Shown: positions 3,762-21,625 of the stretch, one piece after another | How positions within the stretch are numbered: position 1 is the stretch's first letter | Layout: the number at the start of each line of letters is the position of its first letter | DNA from: a virus | Direction: 5' to 3' (one strand) | Virus record (IMG/VR): IMGVR_UViG_3300032677_001281 | Span: 1-24,982 of that record | DNA length: 24,982 bases | Program-made: the position numbers and the translations under genes | The notes under the pieces: generated by a model | What the model was told of the DNA's origin: nothing | Databases searched by the model: none | The model's input: only the letters and a program-made list of their open reading frames with translations

Positions 3762-4030
3762 TGTTTTAATTTCTGTATAATGTATTCTACTTCGTTGTAG
3801 TAACGATGTTCTTCAACTGGAGTTCCAGGCCCAGTCCATACTGCTGTACCTTTGTAAGCATGGGTTAGCCAAAGACGCCGACCAGTTATATGGCAACGCT
3901 TAGGCCATAGCAAATAAACTAATTTAAACTCTGCACGAGTATTAAAAGGATCGTATTGTTCGTCCATCCACATTCCTGTTATATTCATTCCGTATAAGCC
4001 TTGCGGAAACATTCCGTACCTTACTTTCAC
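3758..4030 (-). CDS. conserved small hypothetical protein (aromatic, WLTHAYKGTAVW)
   Basis: About 90 residues if translation starts at the GTG at 4030, which overlaps the TGA of queE as GTGA; an earlier in-frame GTG at 4051 would also work but would overlap queE further. The protein is rich in Tyr and Trp (for example FKLVYLLWPKRCHITGRRLW and WTGPGTPVEEHRYYNEVEYI). The C-terminal part, in which a WTGPGTPVE segment is followed by a Tyr-rich helix, resembles the end of the next protein, DUF2452 (WTTGVPVDYEYLSQVKYM). The two neighbours may therefore share a small module. No function can be assigned. Confidence 0.6.
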   Translation of the reverse strand: MKVRYGMFPQGLYGMNITGMWMDEQYDPFNTRAEFKLVYLLWPKRCHITGRRLWLTHAYKGTAVWTGPGTPVEEHRYYNEVEYIIQKLKQ

Positions 4031-4890
4031 TTGCCCCAACCATTGCCCCACAAGTCTACGTGCAAGCGTGGGCTATAATTAAATCCACGTTCGCAACAGA
4101 TATTGGCAATGTTTAGTTTGTTTGATTCATATGGATCAACAACACCGCCCTGTGGCATCAAGTAAACAACACCAGTAAATCCACCTGCACGGAAAGCATC
4201 TACAGCCCGAACTGCCTCGTCAACGTGATCCGTTGTTTCCACAACAAACTTAAGATATGTGTGTCCATATGTTTGATAGATATTAACAACCTTGGGCTTG
4301 ATAGCATCTTCCCAAGTTTCCCCACTAGCACTTAACTTGGCACTTACGCTAAAGGTAACTTCACGTCCGGGTAATTCATCAACCCAATCGATTAAGTAAT
4401 CACGAAAGTCTTCATGTAGCTCTTGGGTACCATTGGTTTCAAATGTAATGTTCTTTAAGTCTGCCATACGTGGATGACTCAGCAACTCAGCATAAGCACG
4501 TTGCCAACCCAACAATGGTTCACCGCCAGTAATAACCAGGTGTACATCATTGCCGTTATTCTGCGCCCACATGTTATTAGGAGTTAATGCTAACATTTGT
4601 TCTACAAGTTCTTCTGTAGTTAATGTTGGACTTAGGTGTTTAAATGCAGGATGCCAACTTGCGTAACTATCGCAACCTGTTTCAACTAAGGGTAAACTTA
4701 AGAAAGTATCATATTTGCTAACTTCTTTAGCAACTTCATCTGCACCTGTGGATTTTTCACCGGGCTTGCAACCAAATGAACTACACGTAAAATTGCAACC
4801 ATACGTCCGCAGAAAAACTGATGGCACGCCAACAAATCTTCCTTCTCCCTGAAGTGAATAAAACAATTCACTTACTTTAATCTTTGCCAT
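4027..4890 (-). CDS. queE: 7-carboxy-7-deazaguanine synthase (QueE-like radical SAM enzyme)
   Basis: QueE converts 6-carboxytetrahydropterin to 7-carboxy-7-deazaguanine (CDG) using S-adenosylmethionine, Mg and a 4Fe-4S cluster. The 287-residue protein shows the family start VSELFYSLQGEG and FLRTYGCNFTC, the GGE motif ITGGEPLLGW at 120-129, and FETNGTQ. The cysteines are unusual: C32-x3-C36-x4-C41 rather than the usual third Cys two residues after the second; another Cys at 73 (ETGCDSYASW) could be the third ligand, as part of an insert. AGGACA lies ahead of the ATG at 4890. Gene order downstream is DUF2452 and a repeat protein; upstream are a Zn-ribbon-like gene, a MazG-like gene and queD, so the two pathway enzymes share a transcription unit. 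Confidence 0.88.
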   Translation of the reverse strand: MAKIKVSELFYSLQGEGRFVGVPSVFLRTYGCNFTCSSFGCKPGEKSTGADEVAKEVSKYDTFLSLPLVETGCDSYASWHPAFKHLSPTLTTEELVEQMLALTPNNMWAQNNGNDVHLVITGGEPLLGWQRAYAELLSHPRMADLKNITFETNGTQELHEDFRDYLIDWVDELPGREVTFSVSAKLSASGETWEDAIKPKVVNIYQTYGHTYLKFVVETTDHVDEAVRAVDAFRAGGFTGVVYLMPQGGVVDPYESNKLNIANICCERGFNYSPRLHVDLWGNGWGK

Positions 4891-4963
4891 TATTGTCCTT
4901 TAACATATCAAATCCTAACTCTCTTGGTGTTTTGCCACGCCATTCTTTTGGTGTTCTTCTACC
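4877..4963 (-). pseudogene. stop-interrupted coding tail (…TPKEWRGKTPREL…)
   Basis: In the frame of the upstream Zn-ribbon-like gene, beyond its TAA (4979-4981) and a second TAG (4964-4966), an open stretch of 28 codons encodes GRRTPKEWRGKTPRELGF and then DMLKDNNGKD, ending at a TAA inside the start of queE. It looks protein-like and has no start codon of its own near its front. It could be the remains of a longer C-terminus, a small gene broken by a one- or two-base indel (an ATGCGTAGG lies just ahead in another frame), or a sequencing error. The queE ribosome binding site lies within it. Confidence 0.4.
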
Positions 4964-4978
4964 CTACGCATTTAATTT

Positions 4979-5293
4979 TTATTGAGTTGGGTCTTCGGGA
5001 TTAATTAAATTATTATTTGCAGATTTCTGCATTACACCGGACAAATAGCTATGATATGCTTTAGTTCTATCACCTTTAGCAAATACACGCCTACCACACT
5101 CGTTGCATTCGTGATAAAACATTTCGTGTAATATAACCTCTCCACCTGCCCATTTAGGTTGCTTTTCTAATACTTCCGACCCCTCAATGGTAAATTTGTC
5201 TACACATTGATTAAACGTACATATCACTTCAAACGTTACTGGATCTAAAAAGCTAACATCAACTTTTTTCTTTGACATTTTTTTAATCTTCAT
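4979..5293 (-). CDS. small Zn-ribbon-like protein (MqsA-N-like?)
   Basis: 104 residues, beginning MKIKKMSKKKVDVSF (the second Met is an alternative start). A Cys pair CTFNQC near residue 25 is followed some 45 residues later by HECNECGRRVF, the CxxCG half of a zinc ribbon, with hydrophobic strands between. The layout recalls the N-terminal zinc domain of MqsA/YgiT-type proteins, but no helix-turn-helix follows and the first pair is CX4C, so the link is weak. Its first codons overlap the end of the MazG-like gene. Function unknown. Downstream sequence in the same frame continues to look coding past two stops (see the entry at 4877-4963). Confidence 0.55.
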   Translation of the reverse strand: MKIKKMSKKKVDVSFLDPVTFEVICTFNQCVDKFTIEGSEVLEKQPKWAGGEVILHEMFYHECNECGRRVFAKGDRTKAYHSYLSGVMQKSANNNLINPEDPTQ

Positions 5294-5564
5294 ATATGTT
5301 TGACCATTCGGTTAGTTTTTGACTTTTTTTCACTTGTGCTACATGTAATTCTTTATCTGTATATACTTGGTGTGCTTTAAGTAATTCTATTAGTAAAGTA
5401 ACATCGCCCAACTCTTGTACTAAGTGCTCACGTTGAGTGCCGCCATCTTTGTAACTATTGTCTATGCCAAAGCGGCGAATCTTGCTGATAGCAACAATTA
5501 CTTCCGCACACTCCTCTTGGAGTATGTCTAGGATTTTGTTTACCTTAGGCGAACAGGTCTTCAT
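5283..5564 (-). CDS. MazG-like nucleotide pyrophosphohydrolase
   Basis: I choose the ATG at 5564 (MKTCSPKVNKILDILQEECAE), preceded by GAGTGGA, giving 93 residues; the longer frame back to 5690 lies wholly inside queD and looks like a shadow. The all-alpha NTP pyrophosphohydrolase metal site is visible as QEECAEVIVAISK and, about 30 residues later, HLVQELGDVTLLIELL (ExxxE and ExxD). Such enzymes hydrolyse (d)NTPs or alarmone-like nucleotides to the monophosphates. The gene overlaps the last 20 bases of queD and is therefore coupled to it. It differs clearly from the second MazG-like protein at 16661-17038. Confidence 0.75.
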   Translation of the reverse strand: MKTCSPKVNKILDILQEECAEVIVAISKIRRFGIDNSYKDGGTQREHLVQELGDVTLLIELLKAHQVYTDKELHVAQVKKSQKLTEWSNIYED

Positions 5565-6045
5565 TCCACTCACGATGTCCTTCACGAAACGCCATGTTAC
5601 TTTGGGTTTCTCTAACTTCGACTTTGTAGCACCATAGACGATCTGCTTCAGCTTCACCCCACATGTCAGGGATATAAACACCATTGACATATTTGTACAA
5701 CATATCTGCTAGTCCTTCACACCCTAGCCTAGGAAGGATAGTAAGTTTAGCTAGATTTTTTTCTTGTAAAAGTTTGTATGTTTCTAATTCAGGATCATCT
5801 TCTGCCACTAATAAAGTGTGATCAAATTGACTTTCTAAAATACCTTTAAGCTCTTTAAGTCCGCCATAATCGGCAGCCCAGTGGCGGGTATCTAATGTAT
5901 CTGTACCAAAGTAAAATTTCATACTAAAACTATAACCGTGAATTAAGTTACAGTGACTATCGGATTTCCATTGGCGATATGCACACGGAAATGCGTCATG
6001 ATATTCTTTTGTACTGGTGTACTTGTATTGTATTGCTTGATTCAT
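5545..6045 (-). CDS. queD: 6-carboxytetrahydropterin synthase-like protein (divergent QueD)
   Basis: QueD turns dihydroneopterin triphosphate into 6-carboxytetrahydropterin, the substrate of QueE. This 166-residue T-fold protein has the catalytic Cys32 in HCNLIHGYSF, the D75-H76 pair (FDHTLL), DYGGLKELK as the ID-F-LK segment, C109-E110 (GCEGLAD) and VRET near the end. Compared with E. coli QueD, the zinc-binding HGH is HGY and the earlier His of AAHRL appears as CAYRQW, so two of three zinc ligands seem replaced; as I recall, similar YRQW/HGY sequences occur in alphaproteobacteria. A consensus promoter and an AGGAG lie directly ahead. It heads the transcription unit that contains queE. Confidence 0.85.
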   Translation of the reverse strand: MNQAIQYKYTSTKEYHDAFPCAYRQWKSDSHCNLIHGYSFSMKFYFGTDTLDTRHWAADYGGLKELKGILESQFDHTLLVAEDDPELETYKLLQEKNLAKLTILPRLGCEGLADMLYKYVNGVYIPDMWGEAEADRLWCYKVEVRETQSNMAFREGHREWNEDLFA

Positions 6046-6063
6046 AATAATTCTCCTATGTTA

Positions 6064-6092
6064 ATTATAGCATAGGCGGCAGAATTTATCAA
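6064..6092 (-). promoter_or_regulatory. strong sigma70-type promoter for queD
   Basis: TTGATA (6087-6092) and TATAAT (6064-6069) lie 17 nt apart on the minus strand. The predicted start of RNA is near 6057, where the AGGAGA ribosome binding site begins, so the 5' leader is only about 12 nt. The surrounding 6046-6132 gap holds no gene. Confidence 0.75.
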
Positions 6093-6132
6093 TCGGGATG
6101 ACGCCATAAGACCGATGTTTTTGGGGATATAA

Positions 6133-6318
6133 CTATTTATCTTGTTCAATTTGGGTGCATTTAAGTTTATCATCGCATAGTTCAAATGTACCATTTTGGG
6201 TATTCATGCGTACAATATGCCCTTCGTGAACTGTAAAGGTATATTTGGCATTGTCAACCGCAGGCATTGTCACTTGGTATCCAAGTAAAGCACACATCAG
6301 GGCTGTTAGGGCTATCAT
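6133..6318 (-). CDS. small exported or membrane-anchored protein (61 aa)
   Basis: MIALTALMCALLGYQVTMPAV makes a short hydrophobic N-terminus that could be an uncleaved anchor or signal peptide. About 40 polar residues follow, with a Cys pair (ELCDDKLKC) that could form a disulfide outside the cytoplasm. AGGAAATATAA precedes the ATG, which overlaps the upstream TGA. It is the last gene of the folE block. I do not recognise it. Confidence 0.5.
   Translation of the reverse strand: MIALTALMCALLGYQVTMPAVDNAKYTFTVHEGHIVRMNTQNGTFELCDDKLKCTQIEQDK
6134..6141 (-). promoter_or_regulatory. possible T4-type late promoter element
   Basis: The minus strand reads GATAAATA here, matching the NATAAATA form of T4-like late promoters (T4 consensus TATAAATA), about 90 bp upstream of queD. 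It overlaps the stop codon of the small upstream gene, so chance or coding use can explain it. Only one other such octamer in a non-coding position was noticed (9495-9502, plus strand). Confidence 0.25.
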
Positions 6319-6665
6319 TTATATTTCCTGGCAAATTCTAAATGCATTTTCATAGCGGCTCCAGACGAAAACTGGGTATCTTTTCTAAACGTGATTCCGT
6401 TTAACATAAATGGTTTTAATACCCTATCACCATTCCACCAACTACGTTGAATCCGAATATAACCTAGGGTTTCTAATTGCTCACGTAATGCCTTAAACTC
6501 TGGCCCATCATCGCTACCGGTCATACTACACTTGCCCTTACCTTTAAGGACTTCAACAAGATCTTCGTCGGTAACAACGTCCTGGTTTAGATAACTATTC
6601 CATTCTTCATAAGTAGCAAGGTGCCATTCGAGAGATTCATCGAGTTCAAACTTCTTTATTGCCAC
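6315..6665 (-). CDS. hypothetical protein with a C-terminal winged-helix-like segment
   Basis: The start is uncertain; a GTG at 6665 after GGGAGGA is the most likely, giving about 116 residues beginning VAIKKFELDESLEWHL. The frame stays open to a TTG at 6692. The protein has an acidic middle (DVVTDEDLVEVLKG), then EFKALREQLETLGYIRIQRSWWNGDRVLKPFMLN, which could be a helix followed by a beta hairpin as in small DNA-binding folds; this is only a shape-based guess. It overlaps the end of the phosphoribosyltransferase gene and is coupled by ATGA to the next small gene. Unknown function. Confidence 0.55.
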   Translation of the reverse strand: MAIKKFELDESLEWHLATYEEWNSYLNQDVVTDEDLVEVLKGKGKCSMTGSDDGPEFKALREQLETLGYIRIQRSWWNGDRVLKPFMLNGITFRKDTQFSSGAAMKMHLEFARKYK

Positions 6666-7246
6666 CACTCCTCCCAAGGAAATACGCACCAAATAGGATC
6701 TTCTAATTTGTTTATGGACATACCCGCATAGTCTACATCCTTAAAGTCACTTGCTTCGTTGTTGATTAGTACAGCAAAGCGTACATTGTTACCAAAAACA
6801 TTTTCCCAGCGTGGATGATTGGGTAAGCAACCGCTACGCCAATCTTCTTTGATCCAATTGAGTGTAGCACCAGTGTCGTTAATATCATCTACAATAAGAA
6901 TATTTTTAGCATATATAGTATAATCAAACGAATTGTCGCCGCCAAGTACACTATTATTAACTGCAATTGGTCCTATTTCACTTGTATATTCTGTTGGAAA
7001 ATATCCGAATGCTTCTTCGGCCATCCATAGATTAGACTCTGGGTTAGCATTATCGTCGCGGAAACTAACTTTAAGGGTTTCCATTGGTACATCTAAATAT
7101 TGACTTAACATATTAGCAGGAATTAGGCCGCCGCGGGTAAGTCCCACAACATAGTCGGGGCGCCATCCATCTCGGGCCATTGCACGAATGATTTCGTGTA
7201 CCCAGCCCTTAATTGTTGCTTCTTTGTAAAATACTTTTCTAGACAT
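6656..7246 (-). CDS. phosphoribosyltransferase (type I PRTase)
   Basis: Type I phosphoribosyltransferases join a base to PRPP, or regulate that chemistry. In this 196-residue protein the PRPP loop is clear: KNILIVDDINDTGATLNW, with the two acidic residues and the TG. The first loop region is YVVGLTRGGLIPANMLSQYL, as in hypoxanthine/xanthine PRTases, followed by DVPMETLKVSFRDD. The C-terminal WCVFPWEEWW also fits xanthine/guanine-type enzymes. Its base is not clear from sequence; purine salvage is most likely. It belongs to the block led by folE, and being near pathway genes for a modified guanine it might handle a purine-like intermediate, which is speculation. Confidence 0.8.
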   Translation of the reverse strand: MSRKVFYKEATIKGWVHEIIRAMARDGWRPDYVVGLTRGGLIPANMLSQYLDVPMETLKVSFRDDNANPESNLWMAEEAFGYFPTEYTSEIGPIAVNNSVLGGDNSFDYTIYAKNILIVDDINDTGATLNWIKEDWRSGCLPNHPRWENVFGNNVRFAVLINNEASDFKDVDYAGMSINKLEDPIWCVFPWEEWWQ

Positions 7247-7562
7247 AATGTTCTGCTTCTTTTAGGTTGTGTGTTTGTATATAATCTATAAATTTTAACA
7301 GGAACATACTTGCGGCGCTTGCATCTGCTCCATCAAACCTTACTAAGGTTAAACCTGTGCCATCTTGCATTTTGTAGCTGGCTTTGGCTTTACCGTATTG
7401 TACTTGATTTGTAAAATGTTCGCGACCACGGCCATCCCACCAGCGTACTCTAGTAGCACTTCCGCCAATCATGTTAAACCACTCGCCCATTTCGTCAGTG
7501 AGTTCGTTGACCATAAAACGGATTTCGTATGCTACCTTGCATCCTGGGGGAAGTTGTTGCAT
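7239..7562 (-). CDS. conserved hypothetical phage protein
   Basis: 107 residues with no recognisable catalytic motif. It looks like a small alpha/beta protein: a strand-rich first half (CKVAYEIRFMVNELTDEMGEWFNMIGG, RVRWWDGRG, HFTNQVQYGKAKASYKMQDG) and a C-terminal helix (AASMFLLKFIDYIQTHN). The WWDGRG and FTNQVQYG segments look like conserved turns. The ATG is coupled to the previous stop (TAATG), and the end overlaps the PRTase gene by 8 nt. Function not known. Confidence 0.55.
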   Translation of the reverse strand: MQQLPPGCKVAYEIRFMVNELTDEMGEWFNMIGGSATRVRWWDGRGREHFTNQVQYGKAKASYKMQDGTGLTLVRFDGADASAASMFLLKFIDYIQTHNLKEAEHYV

Positions 7563-7918
7563 TACTCTGCGTCAGTTAAGGTTAAAACCATTTTAAGTTG
7601 AGCTTGTGCTAGTTCGTACTTGGCAAGTGCATCTGCTACTGTAACATTCTTGGCGGCAAGTTCTTTGATACGAGTTTCTTCGGCCATTTTCTTATGGCAC
7701 CAATCTAGAGCACTAATAGCCGCACCGCTTAAACTAACTTCAGCAGTACTACCAAACGCAAGCCAGTTGCTTCCGTTATAGACTTCACAATGATTGCCAT
7801 TCATGCGAATCATACCAGTTGCTGGGTTACCACTCGGATCAGGATAAACGTATGGAGTATTGTTGTGTCCGCTGACATGTAGATATCCTGAGGTGTTAGA
7901 ATAGATATTATTAATCAT
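7562..7918 (-). CDS. phage protein with fibre-like N-terminus and helical C-terminus
   Basis: The first ~55 residues (SGYLHVSGHNNTPYVYPD, then GMIRMNGNHCEVYNGSNWLAF) have the 'G-x-x-R-x-N-x-x-x-x-E-V-Y-N/D-G-x-x-W' pattern common in phage tail or fibre-associated proteins. The second half (ALDWCHKKMAEETRIKELAAK then VADALAKYELAQAQLKMVLTL) is helical and probably coiled. I remember similar two-part proteins in marine T4-like phages, without known role. Coupling by ATGA to its upstream membrane protein suggests they are expressed together. Confidence 0.6.
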   Translation of the reverse strand: MINNIYSNTSGYLHVSGHNNTPYVYPDPSGNPATGMIRMNGNHCEVYNGSNWLAFGSTAEVSLSGAAISALDWCHKKMAEETRIKELAAKNVTVADALAKYELAQAQLKMVLTLTDAE

Positions 7919-8468: not shown

Positions 8469-8728
8469 GAACGCAATAATTCCATGCTAACAATATGTCC
8501 GATGCGTGTTGCAATATCTTCGCCGTCGGGGATAACATGTGTGATGCTATTATTACGATCTGTTCGACGATCGTAGCTACGAATCTGCACTACAGTTCCG
8601 CCTTGTGCCGGCATAACATTAAAGGATAGTCCTTCTACATCAACTGATCTTGCACCTACAGCTACATCCTGTGCTACAGACCAGTCATCTCTAACCCACT
8701 TAACAACAATTCTCTTTAGCCATTTCAT
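8465..8728 (-). CDS. small phage protein, paralogue of the next downstream gene
   Basis: 87 residues starting MKWLKRIVVKWVRDDW, an amphipathic, basic helix that may sit on a membrane or nucleic acid. The rest matches the domain of the 8139-8468 product: PAQGGTVVQIRSYDRRTDRN and THVIPDGEDIATRIGHIVSM. Adjacent position and shared order of motifs point to a tandem duplication. It directly follows folE, with an ATGA overlap. Function unknown. Confidence 0.6.
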   Translation of the reverse strand: MKWLKRIVVKWVRDDWSVAQDVAVGARSVDVEGLSFNVMPAQGGTVVQIRSYDRRTDRNNSITHVIPDGEDIATRIGHIVSMELLRS

Positions 8729-9417
8729 CGTGCATAACCTTGTTGTAATTTGATATTATCAAAAAACTCTTTTTTAGTATTCATGTCAATTTGGAATGCA
8801 CCTGTTAATACGGTAGTTTGAGTCAATGAGCTACCTGCCATAATACCACGATTTTCGCAACATCCGTGTGTGGCCTGAATATAAACTGCAATATTTTTAC
8901 TACCAGTTGCTAAGCCGATCTCACGTGCTATGTCGTTGCACAGTTCTTCTTGTAGTGTGCCGCGACGAGCACACCACTGAGCAATCCTAGTATACTTACT
9001 AAGACCAATAAGCCTATTGGCGGCAATAATCCCAATGTAAGCCACTCCCACAACTGGCTGATGATGATGACTACACATAGAGCGCAATTCACTCCGTACA
9101 ACCAACATGCCTTTATATCCATCATCTACCTCGTTGGGAAAACTTGTTGCATCTGGTGCAGATTCATATCTACCTGCCATAATTTCATTGTAGTACATCT
9201 TGGCCAAGCGTTTAGCTGTACCTTGACTATTGGGATCGTTTTCACGATCAATTAGTAGCGTATCTAATACCTGCTCAAAAGCCACAGTGGCTTCCTTGAT
9301 TAGTTCTGCTTTTACTTCTTCTGTTACGTATTCACTGATGTTATCACCAGCCCAAAAGCGTTTCTTATCCGCTTTCATTTTTTCACGTAATACTTGTGCT
9401 AAGTTTTTTTCTGACAT
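8725..9417 (-). CDS. folE: GTP cyclohydrolase I (FolE)
   Basis: FolE opens GTP to 7,8-dihydroneopterin triphosphate, the first step of both folate and 7-deazaguanine synthesis. The 230-residue protein has the zinc site C115-S-H-H118 (MCSHHHQPVVGVAYIG) and C186 in ATHGCCENRG, plus the signature RLIGLSKYTRIAQWCARR and TLQEELCNDIAREI. Length and order fit the usual enzyme, with a slightly long helical N-terminus. AGGAAA precedes the ATG, and a near-consensus promoter lies 40 bp upstream. With queD, queE and a dpdA-like gene in the same window, its most likely role is to feed phage DNA modification rather than folate. Confidence 0.92.
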   Translation of the reverse strand: MSEKNLAQVLREKMKADKKRFWAGDNISEYVTEEVKAELIKEATVAFEQVLDTLLIDRENDPNSQGTAKRLAKMYYNEIMAGRYESAPDATSFPNEVDDGYKGMLVVRSELRSMCSHHHQPVVGVAYIGIIAANRLIGLSKYTRIAQWCARRGTLQEELCNDIAREIGLATGSKNIAVYIQATHGCCENRGIMAGSSLTQTTVLTGAFQIDMNTKKEFFDNIKLQQGYAR

Positions 9418-9456
9418 TGTTTTCCTATTTTCTGTCGTGGATGACTTTATTCAGTT

Positions 9457-9485: not shown

Positions 9486-9494
9486 TACATTTAG

Positions 9495-9510: not shown

Positions 9511-10596
9511 ATGAAACGTGCCGTTCTGTGTGTATCTAATCCACAAGATTATATTCCTAAATTAAACAACTATAGCATTATGGTAATTAATCCTAATGCC
9601 ACTCCTGCACGAAATCAATACCTATTAGCCAATTCGGACTGGAGTTTACTAATAACAGACACTGAAGAAAAACATAGAGATGGTGCCGACTATCCAAACG
9701 AGCGTGTACTTTGGTACACCAGTGGAACCACTGGCGACAGTAAGTTCTGTAGTTTTAGTCAAGACCAACTGGACAGCATGGCCAAGACTATTTGTAATGC
9801 TTATGATATTACAGCCAATGATAGGTATGTGAGTGTTATGAGTTTATGGCATGCACATGGTCAGGGATTTTATTGGGCAACACAATTGGCTGGATGTGAA
9901 ACTCACTATTTGCCGGTTAAGGAAATTAGACATCTACCCAAATATAGTCCAACTTTTATTACAGCTATCCCAGACTTACTCAGAGTTATTGGTGAACTTG
10001 AATTTAATACCAATTTAAGATTTATTCGTGGTGCTAGTGCCCCTTTGCCGGATCTACTATACAAGGGTCTGCAGAATAAATTCAATATTCCTATAATAGA
10101 AGCATTTGGAATGACCGAAGCATTTAGTCATTGCTTTAGTAATCCGTTACATGGCAAACAACGTATAGGTACTGTGGGATTACCAGATGGTATTGATGCA
10201 CGTATCATTAATGGCCATTTAGAAATTTGTGGAGCTAATATTGCAACCCCCGGATGGTTTGATACCGGAGACCTATCCGAACAAGATGACCAAGGTTACT
10301 ACAAAATATTAGGACGTCACCGCGATCAAATCAATATCAAAGGTGTTAAATTAAATCCATTGAGTCTAGAAAAACAATTACTTGAATCTGTTGATGGCAT
10401 GCAGGAATGTGCGGTATTTGGAACTGACAATGTTAACTGTGTATATGTAGGCAATTGTGATAAAGACACTATTATTAGTTTCTTATTATCATTGGGTAGT
10501 CATTGCAGACCAAGTATTTTAGAATCTGTAGAACTAATACCGTTAAACCCGGCGGGTAAGGTTTCCCGTAGTTTGCTCAATTCGTTGTATTACTAA
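9511..10596 (+). CDS. ANL-superfamily adenylating enzyme (acyl-CoA synthetase-like), compact
   Basis: ANL enzymes activate a carboxylic acid as its acyl-AMP and usually pass it to CoA or a carrier protein. All core motifs are present in 361 residues: A3 YTSGTTGDSK (69-78), A5 FGMTEA (199-204), A7 WFDTGDL (249-255), A8 GRHRDQINIKGVKLNP (268-283) and A10 NPAGKVSR with the catalytic Lys350. Usual members have 500 or more residues; here most of the N-terminal subdomain is missing, as in compact ligases. No carrier domain is attached. It is the only plus-strand gene, and its last 54 bases overlap the end of the SGNH-like gene on the other strand. The acid is unknown. GalE, DegT-like and SGNH-like neighbours suggest sugar acylation or a similar job. 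Confidence 0.85.
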   Translation: MKRAVLCVSNPQDYIPKLNNYSIMVINPNATPARNQYLLANSDWSLLITDTEEKHRDGADYPNERVLWYTSGTTGDSKFCSFSQDQLDSMAKTICNAYDITANDRYVSVMSLWHAHGQGFYWATQLAGCETHYLPVKEIRHLPKYSPTFITAIPDLLRVIGELEFNTNLRFIRGASAPLPDLLYKGLQNKFNIPIIEAFGMTEAFSHCFSNPLHGKQRIGTVGLPDGIDARIINGHLEICGANIATPGWFDTGDLSEQDDQGYYKILGRHRDQINIKGVKLNPLSLEKQLLESVDGMQECAVFGTDNVNCVYVGNCDKDTIISFLLSLGSHCRPSILESVELIPLNPAGKVSRSLLNSLYY

Positions 10597-11256: not shown

Positions 11257-11840
11257 TGAAAATTTATCTTTCGCAAATCAGGATACTGATAATGTTGAGT
11301 CTCCTGATTTGCATAAGGTAATTGAACTACTCCATCTCGGCAAAGTTCTAAAGTAGGGCAGTAGTGATATCCTTGTTTAAATGTTAATTGATTCTCCCAA
11401 GGGCTAATACGTAGATCTCTACCATCGCTACGCCAACAGCTTAAAGTTTCGTACACATTTAGACTATCTGTTAAGATAGCGCCACCCTTGCCTAGTTCAA
11501 GTGGCTTGCCGTGACCAAAACTTAAACATTGTAATTGATTACGTCGATACATGCCCTGACGTAATAAGCGGGCACTATCCCAGATACGTGTATCCTCAAA
11601 TTGATATTCACCAATCCAAGTTTGTTCTGACTCATTGAGATAATAGTACCCGATATCGAGTTGATTTAACAACTGTGGAATACTCAGATATGTATACGGA
11701 GTAAGACCGAGAATTTCTACTTCATCGTACCGTAGACAAAGTTCTAGTGCATGTGTACACCCATCTGTTACTACCGCGTAAGGCGCACCTGTGAACTTGG
11801 CCAATGCAGATTCAAAGTCAAATAGTGTTTGAAAGCTCAT
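11253..11840 (-). CDS. short DegT/DnrJ/EryC1/StrS aminotransferase-like protein
   Basis: This family makes amino sugars by PLP-dependent transamination of keto sugars. The start matches it well: FESALAKFTGAPYAVVTDGCTHALELCLR. IWDSARLLRQG holds the Asp88 that would contact the PLP ring, and LSFGHGKPLELGKGGAILTD holds Lys112, the likely PLP lysine. The protein is only 195 residues, about half the normal length: the C-terminal domain that closes the active site is absent, with a short ending YCPTLELCRDGVVQLPY. It may be a natural minimal form seen in phages, or have lost activity. It lies between galE and an SGNH-like gene, both coupled by ATGA. Confidence 0.75.
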   Translation of the reverse strand: MSFQTLFDFESALAKFTGAPYAVVTDGCTHALELCLRYDEVEILGLTPYTYLSIPQLLNQLDIGYYYLNESEQTWIGEYQFEDTRIWDSARLLRQGMYRRNQLQCLSFGHGKPLELGKGGAILTDSLNVYETLSCWRSDGRDLRISPWENQLTFKQGYHYCPTLELCRDGVVQLPYANQETQHYQYPDLRKINFQ

Positions 11841-12823
11841 TGACTACTATACCACTTGTAAGCCGTATCGATAATGGTGGCAATGTCGCTGTATTTAGGT
11901 TCCCATTTTAGCTTTAGTCTTGCTTCTGTAGCATCAGCAACCAGCTCTGCAGGGTCGCCCCACCGTACTGGGCCATAATTTACAAATGACAATCCGTAGT
12001 GTTCCATTACATAATCGACAATTTGTTTATTGCTAACACCTGTGTTAGTACCAAGATTGAATATACTAGCACCTACATTGGGTGTTCCGTCTAGCCATGC
12101 CGGCAAAATATAATCAACTGCCTTAAGATGTGCTTGTGCAATATCCCAAACGTGAACATAGTCGCGAATACAAGTACCATCCGGAGTTGAAAAGTCTCCA
12201 CCGTTAATGGTGAATGCTCGACCTGCTATGCTGGCTTCCAGTACACGGGCAACAATGTGAGTAGCATCTGGCTCCTGCCCTAGATCTGTTGTAATGGGCA
12301 TGGCACCTGCGGCATTAAAGTAACGAAAGCACACACTAGGTAGCGCATACGCACCCCAAAAATCCTTGAGTATTTCTTCTGTCATTGCTTTGGTATTGCC
12401 GTAAGGGCTAATAGGATTCTTCCTAGTGTGCTCTGTAATTGGTAACTTGTCCGGCTGTCCATACACACTAGCACTTGAACTAAACATGATCAAGGGCTTT
12501 TTCTTAAAATCCTTAACCCAGTTTAACATACGAATAGTTTTACTAATGTTATTATTGTAATACTCGCCGGGATTGGTCATACTAGGACCGACTAAACTAG
12601 TGCCAGCACAATGTACAATAACATCGGGATTAAGATCTAATATAGTAGCAAGTGCATCATCGTCAGCAAAGTCGCTGATGTAAAATCCATCTATATCTTT
12701 AAGTGTATGCTCACGCTTGACTCGATCGATAATGAATACCTCATCACCGTTCTGTTTAAATGCTCGTGCAACGTGACTACCGATATAGCCACATCCGCCA
12801 GTTACAACAATTCGTTTGCTCAT
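11837..12823 (-). CDS. galE: UDP-glucose 4-epimerase (GalE-like, extended SDR)
   Basis: The 328-residue protein has the NAD-binding TGGCGYIGSH at 8-17, a D33 at the end of the second strand, SSSASVYG (catalytic Ser region, 115-122), and YGNTK (Y141, K145). CFRYFNAAGA, CIRDYVHVWDIAQAH and INGGDFSTPDGTCIRD are GalE hallmarks, so the likely reaction is interconversion of UDP-glucose and UDP-galactose or their N-acetyl forms. Length is normal. It is preceded by a small lysine-rich gene and followed by a DegT-like gene, both coupled. In a phage it would supply a sugar nucleotide for glycosylation, perhaps by the GT-B enzyme at 14980-16173. Confidence 0.9.
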   Translation of the reverse strand: MSKRIVVTGGCGYIGSHVARAFKQNGDEVFIIDRVKREHTLKDIDGFYISDFADDDALATILDLNPDVIVHCAGTSLVGPSMTNPGEYYNNNISKTIRMLNWVKDFKKKPLIMFSSSASVYGQPDKLPITEHTRKNPISPYGNTKAMTEEILKDFWGAYALPSVCFRYFNAAGAMPITTDLGQEPDATHIVARVLEASIAGRAFTINGGDFSTPDGTCIRDYVHVWDIAQAHLKAVDYILPAWLDGTPNVGASIFNLGTNTGVSNKQIVDYVMEHYGLSFVNYGPVRWGDPAELVADATEARLKLKWEPKYSDIATIIDTAYKWYSSQ

Positions 12824-14743: not shown

Positions 14744-14980
14744 TTATCTATTTAGAGTTGACCAAGTTAACCATTCCTTAAAGCAATTATACACTTCAGA
14801 GATTTCTTTGTCATCCTGTTCGAGTCGAACTCCACGAACATAAAAGCCATCTTGGGCTATTTTAAGCATTTCGGTTCCGGCACAATGTAACACTACACTA
14901 TTTTCGGGCGGTGCAGTCATTGATATTACAGGTTGTACTTCACGTTGTTTAGCAAATACCCATTGATCGCCGGTAGACAT
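14744..14980 (-). CDS. conserved small phage protein (EMLKIAQDGFYVRG)
   Basis: 78 residues. The core APPENSVVLHCAGTEMLKIA, QDGFYVRGVRLEQDDKEIS and EVYNCFKEWLTW resembles a small conserved phage protein that I remember from several T4-like and siphovirus-like genomes, where it is annotated as hypothetical. Secondary structure should be strands followed by one helix. The ATG overlaps the stop of the glycosyltransferase gene as TAATG. No function can be given. Confidence 0.65.
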   Translation of the reverse strand: MSTGDQWVFAKQREVQPVISMTAPPENSVVLHCAGTEMLKIAQDGFYVRGVRLEQDDKEISEVYNCFKEWLTWSTLNR

Positions 14981-16173
14981 TAGTATTTGCTTTCGTGTGT
15001 ATGCTTACGATAATCAGTTGACATGCGCTTCCATTCTTCGCCTTTGCCTTCTAGGATATCCACAATACGATCAATACAGCCATCCGTCCAATCGCTGATG
15101 CGACCTTGTTGTGCGTGTGGACGTTGTAACAATGTTCCTAATTTGGTCATTGCATCTTCTAGTGACCAAGGAACGTATAACCGGCTTGCGTCATTTGCAA
15201 AAGTTTCAGGGAAGCTACGATAAGCAGGATATAAAACATTCGATCCAAGCGTATCTGCTTCTGATACTGTATTTGAAACCCAGTCTTGTAAAGCGCAGTT
15301 AAACAATACCCTAGTATCGTTAAGCAAACTATAGTAATCATTCTTTTCTAAATCCTCGTATACAGTAAGCAGGCCTCGGGCTTGTAAATCTCTTGTACGA
15401 GCCATATAGCTATCGTTATTGCTTTTTAACTTACCGCCACTGTAGATACAGAACTCTACCTTAGGTAAATGGAAGTTATCATTCCATGCTTCGATCAAGT
15501 CCATGTAAAAGTCTGGTTGTTTCTCTTGATCCCACCGAGCCGCAAAACCCACACGCATAGCACGATCTTCAAATGGCTTTAAGTCACCTTTAACACGTGA
15601 GCGTACTTCTTCTTTGCCAAATGCTAGGCCTGAAATATTGTAGATAGGACTTTCCCACCCTGCAATCTTCATATGCATGACCATTTCTTCGTTACTAGCC
15701 AAGGTGATATCTGCAAAGCTATCAACCATCTTCTCATACAGGCCCATCCACTTGCTCATGCCCCAGACATGTACAAAGTCATCGGGGTCGATACTCTGGG
15801 CCAAGCAACGTACAGCAATTCTAGGACGATGTGCTGGATCGATTTGATCCATAATGTAAGGCAAACTTTCAATACCGGGTTGAAACATATCTTCAAAGTA
15901 CACAACATCTTCGTTGGTTACTTCTCCTTGCTTCATCAGCTTGACCAAGTTCATTATCTGGCTCATACCAAAGTAAGTGCGTCCGTGTGCATCCAGAACT
16001 TGTCCTGTAACAATAGCTTGATCGTTACCGAGTGTTTCGCCTGTGACAATTTCGTAGTCAATACCCCGACGTTTGAATACAGCTTCATTCCAATCTTGTA
16101 ACTGTAATGTATATCTTGCTTTATAAGGCTCTAGGCCCATGTACCATAATTTACGCATTTTGTATAGTTTCAT
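14980..16173 (-). CDS. GT-B type glycosyltransferase
   Basis: 397 residues. The N-terminal half starts KLWYMGLEPYKARYTLQLQD and has an acceptor-side domain with VVYFEDMFQPGIESLPYIMD and RCLAQSIDPDDFVH. The second half has the donor-side features of family-4-like GT-B enzymes: MRVGFAARWDQEKQPDFYMD, LTVYEDLEKNDYYSLLNDTR and WVSNTVSEADTLGSNVLYPA (Glu-containing nucleotide-sugar loop). Similar proteins occur in marine T4-like phages as I remember. The acceptor could be phage DNA, a tail protein or host polysaccharide; the sequence does not decide. A promoter lies just upstream in the preceding gene. GalE could supply its sugar donor. Confidence 0.8.
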   Translation of the reverse strand: MKLYKMRKLWYMGLEPYKARYTLQLQDWNEAVFKRRGIDYEIVTGETLGNDQAIVTGQVLDAHGRTYFGMSQIMNLVKLMKQGEVTNEDVVYFEDMFQPGIESLPYIMDQIDPAHRPRIAVRCLAQSIDPDDFVHVWGMSKWMGLYEKMVDSFADITLASNEEMVMHMKIAGWESPIYNISGLAFGKEEVRSRVKGDLKPFEDRAMRVGFAARWDQEKQPDFYMDLIEAWNDNFHLPKVEFCIYSGGKLKSNNDSYMARTRDLQARGLLTVYEDLEKNDYYSLLNDTRVLFNCALQDWVSNTVSEADTLGSNVLYPAYRSFPETFANDASRLYVPWSLEDAMTKLGTLLQRPHAQQGRISDWTDGCIDRIVDILEGKGEEWKRMSTDYRKHTHESKY

Positions 16174-17038: not shown

Positions 17039-17039
17039 A

Positions 17040-17378: not shown

Positions 17379-17379
17379 C

Positions 17380-17643
17380 TTAGTGTTCTCTTGGTTTCCA
17401 GTTTGTATTACGTGGCTTGAACGTAGTTCGATCACGTTTAGGAGTACGCCACTGATCCCAAGGCTCGCGACCACGGACCATCTTTAAGTATTCACCATAC
17501 GGTGTTCGTTCGTTGTACAAATTCTTCTCATCATACGGGTAGCCATAATCTCTGCAGAATTGTTCGTACACTTCCAAATCTTCAAAGATTGTTTTTACTT
17601 CAGGTTTAAGGCAAAGATACTTAGCTAGCCATTCTTGGGCCAT
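17380..17643 (-). CDS. conserved small phage protein (YEQFCRDYGYPYDEKNLYN)
   Basis: 87 residues. The first half is helical (MAQEWLAKYLCLKPEVKTIF, EDLEVYEQFCRDYGYPYDEK) and the second is basic and flexible (YGEYLKMVRGREPWDQWRTP, KRDRTTFKPRNTNWKPREH). I remember this pattern, including DYGYxxDE…LYN…PYG and GREPWDQW, from other T4-like phages, without a function. AGGAAATATT precedes the ATG. A 29 nt gap separates it from the radical SAM gene upstream. The basic tail could touch nucleic acid. Confidence 0.65.
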   Translation of the reverse strand: MAQEWLAKYLCLKPEVKTIFEDLEVYEQFCRDYGYPYDEKNLYNERTPYGEYLKMVRGREPWDQWRTPKRDRTTFKPRNTNWKPREH

Positions 17644-17672
17644 AATATTTCCTTTTTAAGTTAAACTACAGG

Positions 17673-18860
17673 TTAATTATAATATTTTAACACACTTTCG
17701 TCGAGGTGTATTTTAATTATTTTTTTAAAATCTTCCTTCGAATTTGCCTTTGGGGCGCATATACCACATCCACAATTAATCTTTGGACATTGTATAACCG
17801 GTACAGTTTTTGTTTCTAACTGATTTTTAAATTTTTCTAATATTTGATCTGCCTCGTCAATAGAGCCAATTGAGCCAACAGCATTAGTTTCAGGATTAAC
17901 CATGCAACTAGTGTTATGATAAATTAATCCCGAATGTTGTTTAACAAACAAAAAATACCAATTGACACTACAGTACCAGTTACGAAATTGCGTAATAGGC
18001 ACGTGAGAAACGGGATTACGTCTATTTGAATTAATGCACAATGCTTTTTCGCTACAGCATGGATACCCTGCACTAGAAACAATAAACTTATCATTGACTG
18101 TAGTCATGTCCTGCAGTTTAATTGTGTTTATAGATTTTTTATTGTTTTCATTCCAATAATTAGCTATAAATTCAGATTGTTCTTTAGTATAAGAATGAAA
18201 CTTTGCTCCGTCTTTATCTTTCCAGTCCGTTTCGATACCATGCTTTATTGTAACCCCAATTGGTTTTATTAAAGTTTTAATGCCGTCTTGATTAAACCTT
18301 TCAGCTAAATCTTGACATTCTTTAAATTTAAGTGGGTCGGAATGAGCTAATAATCTAACCTCAAATGATTTGTTATGTTTTTTTAACAAATAGATAGTTT
18401 CAAGTGTCATTGCCTTTTGCTTAGGCAATGATTCTGTGTGATAACTAACAGTCCAATATTGTATTATAGGCAAACATTTTTCTAATACAGTTTTGCCTAC
18501 AACACCATTAGTTATAACGTATGTAGTCAACTTCCATTTATCCTTATACGTAGTTTCGTATAACTCGGACATATACTCAAGTATTTCTTGAATGTCTGGG
18601 TGTATTAGTGTTTCACCACCTAACAAATTTAGTGTAACAAATTTTTCGTAAGGTTTCCTGACGGACATAACAAGATCTGCATATTTAAATGCAAAATCAA
18701 TGCCTTTTTTGCAACTGTTTATATCGGGGTGCTTAGTAGTGTTATCGTGAGCACCACAATACGAGCAATCAAGATTACAAAGATAGGTTAATTCCCAATC
18801 AATAACAAATGCCGGGCGATGATTTGGGTCAAACGCCAAATCAATACTTGATATAGTCAT
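17673..18860 (-). CDS. radical SAM protein with Cys-rich C-terminus
   Basis: 395 residues. The 4Fe-4S motif is LTYLCNLDCSYCGAHDN (CX3CX2C) near residue 28, and the GGE motif is LNLLGGETLIHPDI. C-terminal cysteines (AGYPCCSEKALCIN, IYHNTSCMV and CPKINCGCGICAPKA) look like a SPASM-type domain for extra clusters. SPASM radical SAM enzymes typically modify peptides or sugars. Composition is richer in Lys, Asn and Ile than its neighbours, and the DNA looks more AT-rich, which suggests later arrival. The stop lies 29 nt from the next gene, one of the longer gaps. TAATG couples it to the T-fold gene. The substrate is not known. Confidence 0.82.
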   Translation of the reverse strand: MTISSIDLAFDPNHRPAFVIDWELTYLCNLDCSYCGAHDNTTKHPDINSCKKGIDFAFKYADLVMSVRKPYEKFVTLNLLGGETLIHPDIQEILEYMSELYETTYKDKWKLTTYVITNGVVGKTVLEKCLPIIQYWTVSYHTESLPKQKAMTLETIYLLKKHNKSFEVRLLAHSDPLKFKECQDLAERFNQDGIKTLIKPIGVTIKHGIETDWKDKDGAKFHSYTKEQSEFIANYWNENNKKSINTIKLQDMTTVNDKFIVSSAGYPCCSEKALCINSNRRNPVSHVPITQFRNWYCSVNWYFLFVKQHSGLIYHNTSCMVNPETNAVGSIGSIDEADQILEKFKNQLETKTVPVIQCPKINCGCGICAPKANSKEDFKKIIKIHLDESVLKYYN

Positions 18861-19303
18861 TAAATTACAATTGATTGACTTGGACGGGTGAGGTTATAAG
18901 TAATTGTGCATCCGTTTTCACCGTCCTCGGATACAGCAATTTTTACAGCACGATTAGGATACCGTGCAGCAATTTGGAGATATAAGTCGTCTGCAATCAT
19001 TTCGCAGGACTTAAAGTCTAATTCTAAAATGTCTTTGCTATAAAGACCTTCCAACCAACGTTTGAATTGAATAAATTCAATATCGCGATCATTGTGGAAT
19101 ACGTCAATCCATACTTGGAAATGAAAGATATGACGATGTGCATTGCCCAGGAAACTAACATCGTATTCTCCAGGAGTACTCAATGCAGGATCAGTTGCTG
19201 CCGCTGGATAACGATGGATTCCTTCTTTGCGAAATGTCACCCAAATTTCTCGTTGTGCCGCTGATTGAATACGTTCCACTACTGCTCTTTGTTCTTGATT
19301 CAT
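18860..19303 (-). CDS. T-fold protein related to QueD / 6-pyruvoyltetrahydropterin synthase (putative)
   Basis: 147 residues. It shares a chain of motifs with QueD at 5545-6045: HRHIFHFQVWIDV (H56, H58, H61) against HGYSFSMKF; DIEFIQFKRWLEGLY against the DYGGLKELKGIL segment; SCEMIADDLYLQI against GCEGLADMLYKYV, including the Cys-Glu pair; and VSEDGENG against VRETQSN. The Glu after Cys is where T-fold enzymes bind a purine or pterin. The catalytic Cys of QueD before the HGH position is not seen, so it should not do the same reaction. It lies two genes from the dpdA-like gene, so a step in making or changing a 7-deazaguanine is plausible. I recall similar proteins in cyanophages without a fixed role. 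Confidence 0.6.
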   Translation of the reverse strand: MNQEQRAVVERIQSAAQREIWVTFRKEGIHRYPAAATDPALSTPGEYDVSFLGNAHRHIFHFQVWIDVFHNDRDIEFIQFKRWLEGLYSKDILELDFKSCEMIADDLYLQIAARYPNRAVKIAVSEDGENGCTITYNLTRPSQSIVI

Positions 19304-19815
19304 TTGATTACTTCATCTTTAGTATATTTAGACCAATCCGTAAACTTGCTACGGTCCCGTAAATCATGTAAACTATGACACCAAACTCCGGGGTTAGTTG
19401 CCGCAAAGTCTTTGTCGTCGAGCTTAATTGTAGCATTATATCCCAGCATTTGTAAATACGGCAATTTCACCGAAATCATAGGAATAAAGTTGTTGTACTC
19501 GCATAGTGGACCTTCTATTAATCCTTCTACTGACTTAACATCAATATCTAAGGTGCATAGTAAACCTAATCGTAATGCTACTAGGATCATGTTTTCCCAC
19601 GATTTCCACGTTGCGGCATCGTTTACAGCCGGATCAGGGAAACTTTGATTGGCACCAAAGTAAACGTGTCTACACTCATTTTTATGAGCCATAAGTAAGA
19701 CAGTTTCGGAATCCTGTACACCTACAACAAATAGAGTCCGTTGCCCAAATGCCGGTGTATGCTCTACTTCTGTACCTACAAAAAAGTCTACCTGTTCGTG
19801 TCCTGCTCTAATCAT
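19300..19815 (-). CDS. conserved hypothetical protein of the dpdA group
   Basis: 171 residues beginning MIRAGHEQVDFFVGTEVEHT. It reads as an alpha/beta protein: TLFVVGVQDSETVLLMAHKN, then CRHVYFGANQSF, a helix WENMILVALRLGLLCTLDID, FIPMISVKLPYLQMLGYNAT and IKLDDKDFAATNPGVWCH. The strands ending in short acidic turns (DID, KLDDKDF) suggest a barrel-like or Rossmann-like fold. The conserved-looking NPGVW ending and several polar motifs (GTEVEHT, GANQSF) could form an active site. I do not know the family. It is coupled by ATGA to both a YdcH-like gene and the T-fold gene, so it probably acts with the dpdA-like protein. Confidence 0.6.
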   Translation of the reverse strand: MIRAGHEQVDFFVGTEVEHTPAFGQRTLFVVGVQDSETVLLMAHKNECRHVYFGANQSFPDPAVNDAATWKSWENMILVALRLGLLCTLDIDVKSVEGLIEGPLCEYNNFIPMISVKLPYLQMLGYNATIKLDDKDFAATNPGVWCHSLHDLRDRSKFTDWSKYTKDEVIK

Positions 19816-20012
19816 GATTTATCTTTTTTACTTTGTTCAAATGCCACAGTTTCTTTAAGTTTAGCAATATCGTCTTTGATATGCAACCGTTGCTTCTTCA
19901 ATTTGTTAAGTAACTCGTCCTGGAATGCTCCAGATTTTTCTAAACCATCAACCTTCTTATCCAGTTTAGCATGTTGTTCTTCTAAGTGTTTAATACGTGC
20001 GGTGATTGTCAT
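19812..20012 (-). CDS. YdcH/DUF465-like coiled-coil protein
   Basis: 66 residues, almost all helix: MTITARIKHLEEQHAKLDKK, VDGLEKSGAFQDELLNKLKK and QRLHIKDDIAKLKE. The layout 'helix with H-x-x-L-D, short turn, LKKxxLxxKDxI' is that of the YdcH (DUF465) family, short two-helix proteins common in proteobacteria, also like SlyX. Function of the family is not known; it may help another protein oligomerise. Its position right after the dpdA-like gene, with ATGA overlaps at both ends, suggests it is a small partner of that group. Confidence 0.75.
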   Translation of the reverse strand: MTITARIKHLEEQHAKLDKKVDGLEKSGAFQDELLNKLKKQRLHIKDDIAKLKETVAFEQSKKDKS

Positions 20013-21625
20013 TCGTTTTCCAGTTCGTCTAGTTTGGTTTCATCAAATCCGGAATCATCAATATGATGTTCTTCTACTTCATCTACTTCGTAATCAAACA
20101 ATGCGTTAAACATAGTTTGGCTATTCAATGCTTTCTTACCTTTAAAGCCACGTGTGCCTACAATCTCCATCCAGTAACTACTGTACTGTTCGATAATAGC
20201 TTCACTTGTTTCGCGATCTGGTGCTGCAAAGATTGCTTCTACGATCTGCTCAAAGTATTCACCGCCTGGCCCACTACAACGCATCATTGCTGGATGTTCG
20301 CCTGCATCAAATCTACGATTAGCTTCTTGTACCGCAGTTAAATGTAAATAAACATTGTGACCCATTAATAATGCATAGCTAAATGAATCCCACGATGTTT
20401 TGCCCCATTTGCCATTTTTGTTTACACTTGGTAGCACATCGTACATTTCAGGATCGCGGAAGTTATCCTCTGTGAGGGTAACACCTGCTTTAACAACACC
20501 ACCATTGTAGATACAGATATCTTTCATGGTAAGCATATTGCTAATAGGACTTTCCATCCAATTATCGTAAATACCGTCGGCTACTACTCCATCCGACCAC
20601 TTGCGTGTATCTGTACTGTATTTCTTATCATCTGCACTAGGTGCCATGCGATAAGACCACTTCTTATTATTCTCAAATACATTTTCAAAGTAAACCTGTC
20701 CGTTGGCAGTAGCAAGGAACGGACTAGCACAATCAAAGCTAATAGTGAAACTAGGATTGATATACTTACGCACGTTACGTTGAATAACAGTCAGCAAGAC
20801 TGCCCACTCTAGTTTACTTGTACCCAAAAAGTGCATCCAATCGTGTACACCTTCTTTAAGTAGGCCATCGTACTTCAATGCAATTAATCGTCTAAGGATC
20901 AAGTGTACGTCGCACATGTTCTGACCACCCATTGACCACCCATTGAAGTGTGTGTCTGGATACTTAACAGGATCGCAATAATCCTTCATTAGTTCATACC
21001 ATTCGTCTGCATCCTTGTGATTGGCGCCCTGTAGTACGTTAAGTACCTTCATTCCGCCATTGGCAACACCCTTGCGATGTTCCATGAAGTAGTCGTTATT
21101 GAACTTAGTTGCATCTACAGCTTCTTTGAGCGTTCGAATGCCGCACTTGTCACTAGCGTTCTTATCATGAATGACCCAGGTTGGAATATCAAGAGTCATA
21201 CCATAATCAGCAATACCGTCAAGCCAAGCTAAAACTTGTTCACGTTTCTTCTGGGCTTTAGGGCATCCTGATCCGGCCTTCCAATCTCCTTCCCATAATC
21301 CTTTAGCAATCTGGAATCCACCCGAGTCACCTAGCATTAGTGTGTTGGGATCACGATTGCGAACCATGTCCTCTGACCAGTCTTGCTTGTTAAGGTCGAG
21401 GTTTGCGTGGCCGCCGGAGTAGAGCGACCACTTATATGGGAACAGGGCTTTCTGGTCATTTAGCCAGTTCATCTGTTCCATATCTGTTAAGCCCTGCGGG
21501 AAACGTGCAGGGTCTACGTATTCTTCATTGCGTTGCTTACCTACAAAGGTAGCATAGAAACCACTAATAGCCGGGAGAAATATGGCATAGTCGTTTTGTT
21601 TTAGGGTTAGGTTATCTTGTTCCAT
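20009..21625 (-). CDS. dpdA: DpdA-like 7-deazaguanine transglycosylase (TGT superfamily)
   Basis: 538 residues. TGT-type enzymes replace a guanine base with a 7-deazaguanine; DpdA members do this in DNA. The barrel motifs are visible: LMLGDSGGFQIAKG (D100-S-G-G-F-Q) for base binding, NGWSMGGQN (230-236, the GG loop), HFLGTSKLEWAVLL (the VG/G-T-P-like loop) and FTISFDCASPFLATANG (D298, the catalytic Asp in the FDC-x-x-P loop). The C-terminal zinc site of tRNA-TGT (CxCxxC…H) is missing, as expected if it does not act on tRNA. Gene start overlaps the sulfotransferase end by 14 nt. With folE, queD and queE in the window, it is the natural end of the pathway. Confidence 0.83.
   Translation of the reverse strand: MEQDNLTLKQNDYAIFLPAISGFYATFVGKQRNEEYVDPARFPQGLTDMEQMNWLNDQKALFPYKWSLYSGGHANLDLNKQDWSEDMVRNRDPNTLMLGDSGGFQIAKGLWEGDWKAGSGCPKAQKKREQVLAWLDGIADYGMTLDIPTWVIHDKNASDKCGIRTLKEAVDATKFNNDYFMEHRKGVANGGMKVLNVLQGANHKDADEWYELMKDYCDPVKYPDTHFNGWSMGGQNMCDVHLILRRLIALKYDGLLKEGVHDWMHFLGTSKLEWAVLLTVIQRNVRKYINPSFTISFDCASPFLATANGQVYFENVFENNKKWSYRMAPSADDKKYSTDTRKWSDGVVADGIYDNWMESPISNMLTMKDICIYNGGVVKAGVTLTEDNFRDPEMYDVLPSVNKNGKWGKTSWDSFSYALLMGHNVYLHLTAVQEANRRFDAGEHPAMMRCSGPGGEYFEQIVEAIFAAPDRETSEAIIEQYSSYWMEIVGTRGFKGKKALNSQTMFNALFDYEVDEVEEHHIDDSGFDETKLDELENE

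Follow-up and report, generated by a model that had tools for sequence, protein, structure and literature searches.

The 24,982-nucleotide virus record IMGVR_UViG_3300032677_001281 from IMG/VR, called here “the window” at its full length, carries a set of 7-deazaguanine genes that includes c6, a gene found in the place that QueC occupies in other phages. On balance, we favour the interpretation that these genes form a QueC-less DNA-modification module, in which c6 would act on 7-carboxy-7-deazaguanine (CDG) in QueC's stead and a DpdA-like transglycosylase would insert the product. This proposal is based on gene content, gene order, conserved residues and a structural model of the c6 protein.

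Exclusion of QueC by c6

FolE, QueD and QueE convert GTP to CDG, an established pathway, and by homology the three corresponding proteins of the window would do the same. The original prediction had named these genes and the DpdA-like gene; all four open reading frames (ORFs) lie exactly where it placed them, all on the minus strand, and the first three match their families. FolE retains its Cys-Ser-His-His and His-Gly-Cys motifs, and QueE has a CxxxC motif with an insertion after it. The available part of PMC5041015 gives CxxxHGH as the signature of QueD, a member (PTPS-I) of the 6-pyruvoyltetrahydropterin synthase (PTPS) family. The window QueD has CNLIHGY and so departs from this signature, and nonetheless scores over the cut-off of the PTPS Pfam model. 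Its family has CxxxHGY, with Tyr or Phe at the position of the first of the His residues that presumably bind zinc in QueD. HGY forms that keep the first His occur in RHph_I1_18 and as a second copy in PA5oct, which additionally has a canonical QueD. Seven phages that have a clear QueC (Iggy, RHEph06, Erebus, R5C, Motura, PhiXhv-15 and immuto) have no PTPS other than the HGY form, which is therefore likely to be the usual phage QueD. For the same reason, the HGY-type QueD was rejected as a candidate CDG decarboxylase; its context suggests that the window protein works as the QueD.

The original prediction also held that QueC was not visible, and a wider search agrees. Because the record is probably a fragment, the search covered both the window and 11 large relatives, which are contigs of 113-354 kb taken from among the relatives of the DpdA-like gene and may themselves be incomplete. 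No ORF scored over the QueC family cut-off (PF06508) in the window or in any of the 11 large relatives, all of which have QueE and one PTPS match per genome. Eight sub-threshold matches in the large relatives had E-values of 0.0015-0.07. Five of these were considered as hidden QueC and rejected, since they belong to one NadE-like family (70-86% identity to a reference; NadE assigned by eye), and the weak QueC match of Xanthomonas phage X1 was likewise NadE-like by eye.

c6 lies one gene beyond the DpdA-like gene, encodes a protein of 147 amino acids (aa) with no Pfam or NCBIfam name, and was absent from the gene list of the original prediction. The DpdA-like query was searched against IMG/VR and the best 80 of 191 relatives were used; neighbourhood frequencies refer to 131 loci by clustering, many of them truncated. 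By this measure c6 is present in 103/131 loci, and in 109/130 when a hidden Markov model is used. A tblastn search with c6 found relatives in 27 phage records. Among these phages, c6 adjoins QueE in ACP17 and X1, adjoins FolE in RHph_I1_18, is one gene from FolE in phiST (which has no QueC), and is close to FolE in Bakedbeans, Ahp1, D479, Phosso and BUCT-ZZ01; no pathway gene was seen near c6 in the 6.9 kb read from Roos. In some phages c6 forms the C-terminal portion of a larger protein, as in MA9V-3 (L176 4431-5312; 293 aa) and Bakedbeans (L172 4212-5363; 383 aa).

Evidence that c6 excludes QueC came from two samples. A set of 32 records was chosen by similarity to DpdA-like, QueD, FolE or c6. 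c6 is present in 23 of these and absent from nine, and QueC over the cut-off was found in those nine and in phage D479. When the records are collapsed to 22 lineages, the exclusion has a p value of 2e-5. Two of the ten QueC records, Mendera and D479, are weak partial matches; that of Mendera has an intact SGGLDS motif and Cys cluster and was counted as QueC. Since seven of the 32 records had been chosen by c6, a second sample was drawn by QueD alone, using the best 80 of at least 594 relatives. Here, 19 loci have QueC, 19 have c6, none has both and 42 have neither (p 0.004). When the sample is restricted to the 36 loci in which FolE and QueE are present as well, the corresponding counts are 18, 13, none and five (p 7.4e-6). 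A phage-QueC profile at E 1e-4 or better found nothing within the fetched flanks of all 237 c6 loci, a pool in which certain contigs recur between sets. Operons that lie on one strand and have c6 at QueC's place were also observed, as in L417, with the order DpdA (Iggy type), c6, FolE, QueD, QueE. c6 accompanies several types of DpdA and therefore follows the base, not a particular transferase.

Fold and proposed chemistry of c6

An AlphaFold model of c6 made with 74 sequences (mean predicted local distance difference test 92.9, predicted template modelling score 0.82) has a beta-beta-alpha-alpha-beta-beta T-fold close to that of QueD/PTPS. The best PDB match of the model in Foldseek is E. coli QueD (E 1.8e-5). 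VIA gave Z-scores of 12.3 (97 residues aligned, 2.1 Å) and 11.7 (110 residues aligned, 2.3 Å) against PTPS/QueD, followed by dihydroneopterin aldolases, QueF-like proteins and QueF (Z 8.1-10.3). An identity of c6 with QueF was considered and seems less likely, with QueF and QueF-like chains ranking below QueD/PTPS (Z 8.1-9.8). A profile search of c6 against PDB sequences yielded a pair of hits (E 0.099 and 0.24) that were taken as chance, and a profile comparison of c6 with FolE using hhalign gave a probability of 0.6.

Four residues of c6, His30, His56, His58 and Glu126, are invariant in the 74 sequences. In the model, His30 ends strand 1, His56 and His58 start strand 2, and Glu126 ends strand 3; placed by eye, they appear to coincide with the His residues and the Glu of QueD that we take to bind zinc and anchor the base. 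c6 thus shares the fold and the three-His and Glu layout with the QueD/PTPS enzymes E. coli QueD (4ntk) and P. horikoshii 2dj6, but it lacks the Cys four residues ahead of HxH and the CxxxHGH signature. Because the window protein has no Cys before His56, and so lacks the catalytic Cys of QueD, it was not filed as a QueD.

These are the features that would be expected of a deazaguanine-binding relative of QueD that performs a different side-chain chemistry, for which decarboxylation of CDG would be the simplest reaction. With its three-His metal site, its Glu base anchor and no QueD Cys, c6 would take CDG at the branch where other systems use QueC. Most likely, it would hold the 7-carboxylate at the metal and release CO2, yielding 7-deazaguanine. 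The DpdA-like enzyme would then replace guanine in DNA with the product.

Several observations weigh against this proposal. The modelled fold does not specify a reaction, and hhalign relates c6 to phage QueD with modest probabilities of 76 and 56, and to E. coli QueD alone with 0.3. Five of the QueD-drawn loci with FolE and QueE have neither QueC nor c6. Phage D479 has c6 together with its QueC-like match, in which SGGxDS is broken. The other three of the eight sub-threshold QueC matches in large relatives (L090, L091 and L092, in G010, G003 and G005) are PP-loop ORFs of 400-433 aa that lack the Cys cluster of QueC. Finally, sampling was partly by c6 itself, and many loci are truncated or closely related. 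The PP-loop ORF of L090 matches the phage QueC profile weakly (14.9 bits), and the three ORFs could be amide-forming enzymes.

Putative transglycosylase and glycosyltransferase, and neighbouring genes

The DpdA-like protein of the window (Table 1) has no match in Pfam, PHROGs, NCBIfam, PADLOC or PDB sequences, and its assignment as a putative transglycosylase relies on a chain of profiles, on motifs and on context. With hhalign, the window family aligns to the X1 type (probability 92.7, E 4.2e-7), and the X1 type to E. coli Tgt (probability 95, E 3.8e-8). Across the chained alignments, the DSGGFQ and FDC blocks keep their register and order. Compared directly with E. coli Tgt, the window protein aligned over 10 columns (probability 6.6, not significant), and profile alignment showed no relation to the Iggy, R5C and immuto types. 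The motifs are invariant or nearly so in 11 DpdA-like sequences, with D100-Q105 (DSGGFQ) and D298 (FDC block) invariant; we take the Asp of the FDC block to be catalytic. A Pfam search to E 10 gave no match to the DpdA-like protein, a test with little power because the X1, Motura and immuto proteins also have none. tblastn found relatives in 13 phage records, namely the PA5oct group, Sinorhizobium phage Phosso and Vibrio phage 2.275.O. The locus of 2.275.O (L003 14905-24290) has QueC and a relative of the window-type DpdA, has no c6, and includes an annotated 7-cyano-7-deazaguanine reductase and a COG1738 transporter. This type of DpdA is therefore not bound to one base.

A gene for a putative glycosyltransferase resembling family 4 (GT4), also absent from the gene list of the original prediction, is linked to c6 and present in 93/131 loci. 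The window protein matches PF13524 weakly (E 0.2); its relative in BUCT-ZZ01, with 65.5% identity, scores over the PF13692 and PF00534 cut-offs, and that of X1 over the PF00534 cut-off. Homologues adjoin c6 and DpdA or lie close to them in BUCT-ZZ01, X1, ACP17, PA5oct, Phosso and Magnetospirillum. Synechococcus phage BUCT-ZZ01 thereby combines FolE, QueD, QueE, c6, an X1-type DpdA and the glycosyltransferase; in Cellulophaga phage phiST, which has c6, no glycosyltransferase was seen in the 16.6 kb read. In the QueD-drawn sample, the glycosyltransferase profile matched 12/19 c6 loci, 0/19 QueC loci and 0/42 others, and it matched 0/7 loci of QueC isolates. In three sets drawn by c6 it matched 59/80, 67/80 and 74/77 loci, always on the strand of c6. 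Among c6 loci in which DpdA could be typed, the glycosyltransferase accompanies long types far more often than short types (49/50 vs 7/20, 57/63 vs 0/3 and 11/11 vs 0/4). All 14 phage records found by tblastn with the window glycosyltransferase are within the c6 list. With the ACP17 protein, 20 phage records were found, 16 in the c6 list and four outside it: PhiXhv-12, PhiXhv-15, PhiXhv-16 and Ep032 (E 1e-11). A strict link between glycosyltransferase and c6 was rejected given these four phages. PhiXhv-15 is a QueC phage without c6, in which the glycosyltransferase lies one gene from the QueC-matching ORF; the family is therefore associated with 7-deazaguanine pathways, chiefly those that contain c6. 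In this Xanthomonas phage (L510 6659-9893), the genes in a row are the glycosyltransferase, a sugar-deacetylase-like gene and the QueC-matching ORF, which is annotated as a glutamine amidotransferase.

A related arrangement was found outside recognised phages. In a collection of genomes from 84,980 species, c6 occurs on 12 contigs, seven of which show all or part of the arrangement seen in phages. Five contigs (L505-L509), from four assemblies (three Magnetospirillum and one uncultured Rhodospirillaceae), have c6, DpdA-like and QueD genes within about 3 kb. Each of the five has the glycosyltransferase upstream, although on one contig the gene runs off the end; L505 had itself been part of the glycosyltransferase profile. 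The compact cluster at L505 8811-12908 has the order glycosyltransferase, c6, DpdA-like, QueD. QueD has the HGH form in L505 and L508. Around L505 there are response-regulator-like genes, and no phage gene was recognised there by eye. These contigs may represent a bacterial DNA-modification cluster.

It is possible, though rather doubtful, that the final DNA base is a glycosylated 7-deazaguanine. In this scheme, c6 would provide the acceptor base, DpdA would insert it and the GT4-like enzyme would add a sugar, with the bacterial clusters as a four-gene form. The sugar donor in the window phage would perhaps be uridine diphosphate (UDP)-galactose, made by the neighbouring GalE, which sits between the glycosyltransferase and FolE; a part for GalE in the module is presumed. 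We know of no description of glycosylated 7-deazaguanine as a class of DNA base. No report of DNA with such a base was seen in the open-licence literature, judged by titles and the openings of abstracts, and neither the glycosyltransferase link nor the bacterial cluster was found there. The terms “deazaguanine” and “DNA modification” were not found in the Paride paper. Glycosyltransferase genes are already tied to modification of nucleic-acid bases in phage GT4-like DNA glycosyltransferases and in glycosylation of tRNA queuosine; here, the putative acceptor differs, being 7-deazaguanine in DNA.

Table 1. Features of the window and the basis of each assignment.
Feature	Position	Strand	Basis
QueE, CDG synthase, radical SAM	4027..4890	-	PHROG 2076 E 4.9e-52
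QueD-like PTPS, phage HGY form	5545..6045	-	PF01242 E 1.5e-14; PHROG 2389 E 3.3e-35
FolE, GTP cyclohydrolase I	8725..9417	-	PF01227 E 3.4e-38
GalE, UDP-glucose 4-epimerase	11837..12823	-	TIGR01179 301.8 bits (cut-off 262.3); 74/131 loci
GT4-like glycosyltransferase linked to c6	14980..16173	-	locus linkage; Pfam over cut-off in relatives only
c6, QueD-fold protein, proposed CDG-processing enzyme (decarboxylase?)	18860..19303	-	PHROG 17812 E 6.6e-35; fold; QueC exclusion
c4, 171-aa protein between DpdA-like gene and c6	19300..19815	-	123/131 loci
DpdA-like transglycosylase (putative), long type	20009..21625	-	chained hhalign to X1 type and E. coli Tgt; motifs
Sliding-clamp homologue, adjoins DpdA-like gene	23239..23976	-	profile vs annotated Phosso sliding clamp E 1.1e-50; 130/131 loci

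The original prediction described the pathway genes as dispersed. This holds for distance, as they span 17.6 kb, but they form a recurrent same-strand neighbourhood by DNA polymerase and sliding-clamp genes, and the order DpdA, FolE, QueD, QueE recurs in relatives. The c4 protein has no Pfam, PHROGs or NCBIfam match; related proteins occur in ACP17 and in phages of the PA5oct group. A gene for an S-adenosylmethionine (SAM) methyltransferase (24029-24970) lies between the DNA polymerase and the sliding clamp in 127/131 loci; in PA5oct, Phosso and Vibrio phage 2.275.O it lies away from DpdA. A phosphoribosyltransferase gene (window 6656-7246; L111 7442-7837; L175 462-923) lies amid the 7-deazaguanine genes here and is annotated in phages immuto and BUCT-ZZ01; it could act in salvage or activation of a deazaguanine base. 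Two more radical SAM proteins are encoded in the window (17673-18860 and 22232-23239), and the QueE profile gave 3-9 matches, mostly weak, in each large relative (G001-G011). The sole clear plus-strand gene in the module region (9511-10596) encodes a short AMP-forming ligase (AMP-binding, 361 aa), which was rejected as a substitute for QueC, as its cluster occurs in only 9/131 loci and on the opposite strand.

Competing explanations and known systems

The original prediction proposed that the phage may put into its DNA either CDG itself or a CDG derivative for which the enzyme was not known. The QueC-less pathway and the derivative are supported; CDG as the final base has become less likely, because a QueD-fold protein is at QueC's place and does not co-occur with QueC in the QueD-drawn sample. 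If DpdA did insert CDG, c6 might, for example, store or deliver it. The absence of QueC fits this explanation, as does the CDG deoxynucleoside that Cui 2023 is reported to have found in phages, and the five loci with neither QueC nor c6 could be such cases. Hutinet 2019 (PMC6884629), in the part available, describes phages with DpdA and suggests that Bipper, which lacks QueC, could be modified by QueC's substrate. Nevertheless, c6 with an intact three-His site replaces QueC across many lineages, and mutual exclusion would not be expected if c6 were passive, so that we regard CDG as an unlikely final base. Alternatively, the host could complete the pathway, converting phage CDG to preQ0 (7-cyano-7-deazaguanine) for insertion by DpdA, with c6 as an accessory. 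QueC is present in most phage hosts, and the available part of the same study indicates that the DpdA of phage 9g alone inserted E. coli preQ0. Supply by the host would leave the exclusion between c6 and QueC in phages unexplained, making this route improbable.

c6 could instead be another enzyme of the QueD type that works earlier in the pathway, perhaps by aiding the HGY QueD, with a different gene acting after CDG. The two proteins share the T-fold, and c6 retains the His triad whereas the HGY QueD has lost two His ligands. However, the HGY form does not need c6, because it is the sole PTPS in QueC phages without c6, and the Magnetospirillum clusters pair c6 with a QueD that keeps HGH. An upstream role is thus quite unlikely. 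FolE, QueD and QueE also serve tRNA queuosine, as is established, so the genes might act on tRNA or in host metabolism rather than on phage DNA. Given that the transglycosylase homologue adjoins clamp and polymerase genes, and that QueC, which queuosine requires, is absent, such a role seems very improbable, and a c6-dependent DNA modification is preferred.

The module proposed here resembles the FolE-QueD-QueE-QueC-DpdA phages, as described in the available part of PMC6884629, in sharing FolE, QueD, QueE and a transglycosylase, and would be expected to act by post-replicative base exchange. It differs in lacking QueC, in having c6 and a linked glycosyltransferase, and in a DpdA of a long type that family libraries miss.

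Work attributed to Cui in 2023 is said to have found the deoxynucleosides of 7-deazaguanine (dDG) and CDG (dCDG) in phages and to have predicted a CDG decarboxylase, DpdL; phage phiST was reportedly part of that work. The predicted CDG branch without QueC is common to both systems, and a glycosyltransferase link is not known from the earlier one. c6 may be DpdL; nothing on DpdL together with 7-deazaguanine was found in the open-licence literature.

As a structure-based hypothesis, c6 provides one candidate gene for the step from CDG to DNA in phages that lack QueC, and thereby a proposed role for hypothetical proteins that are common in large phages. A glycosyltransferase family tied to 7-deazaguanine pathways predicts a bulky DNA base, which could matter for resistance to restriction enzymes and other nucleases. 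The DNA of this large phage may thus carry a base beyond the products of the standard pathway.

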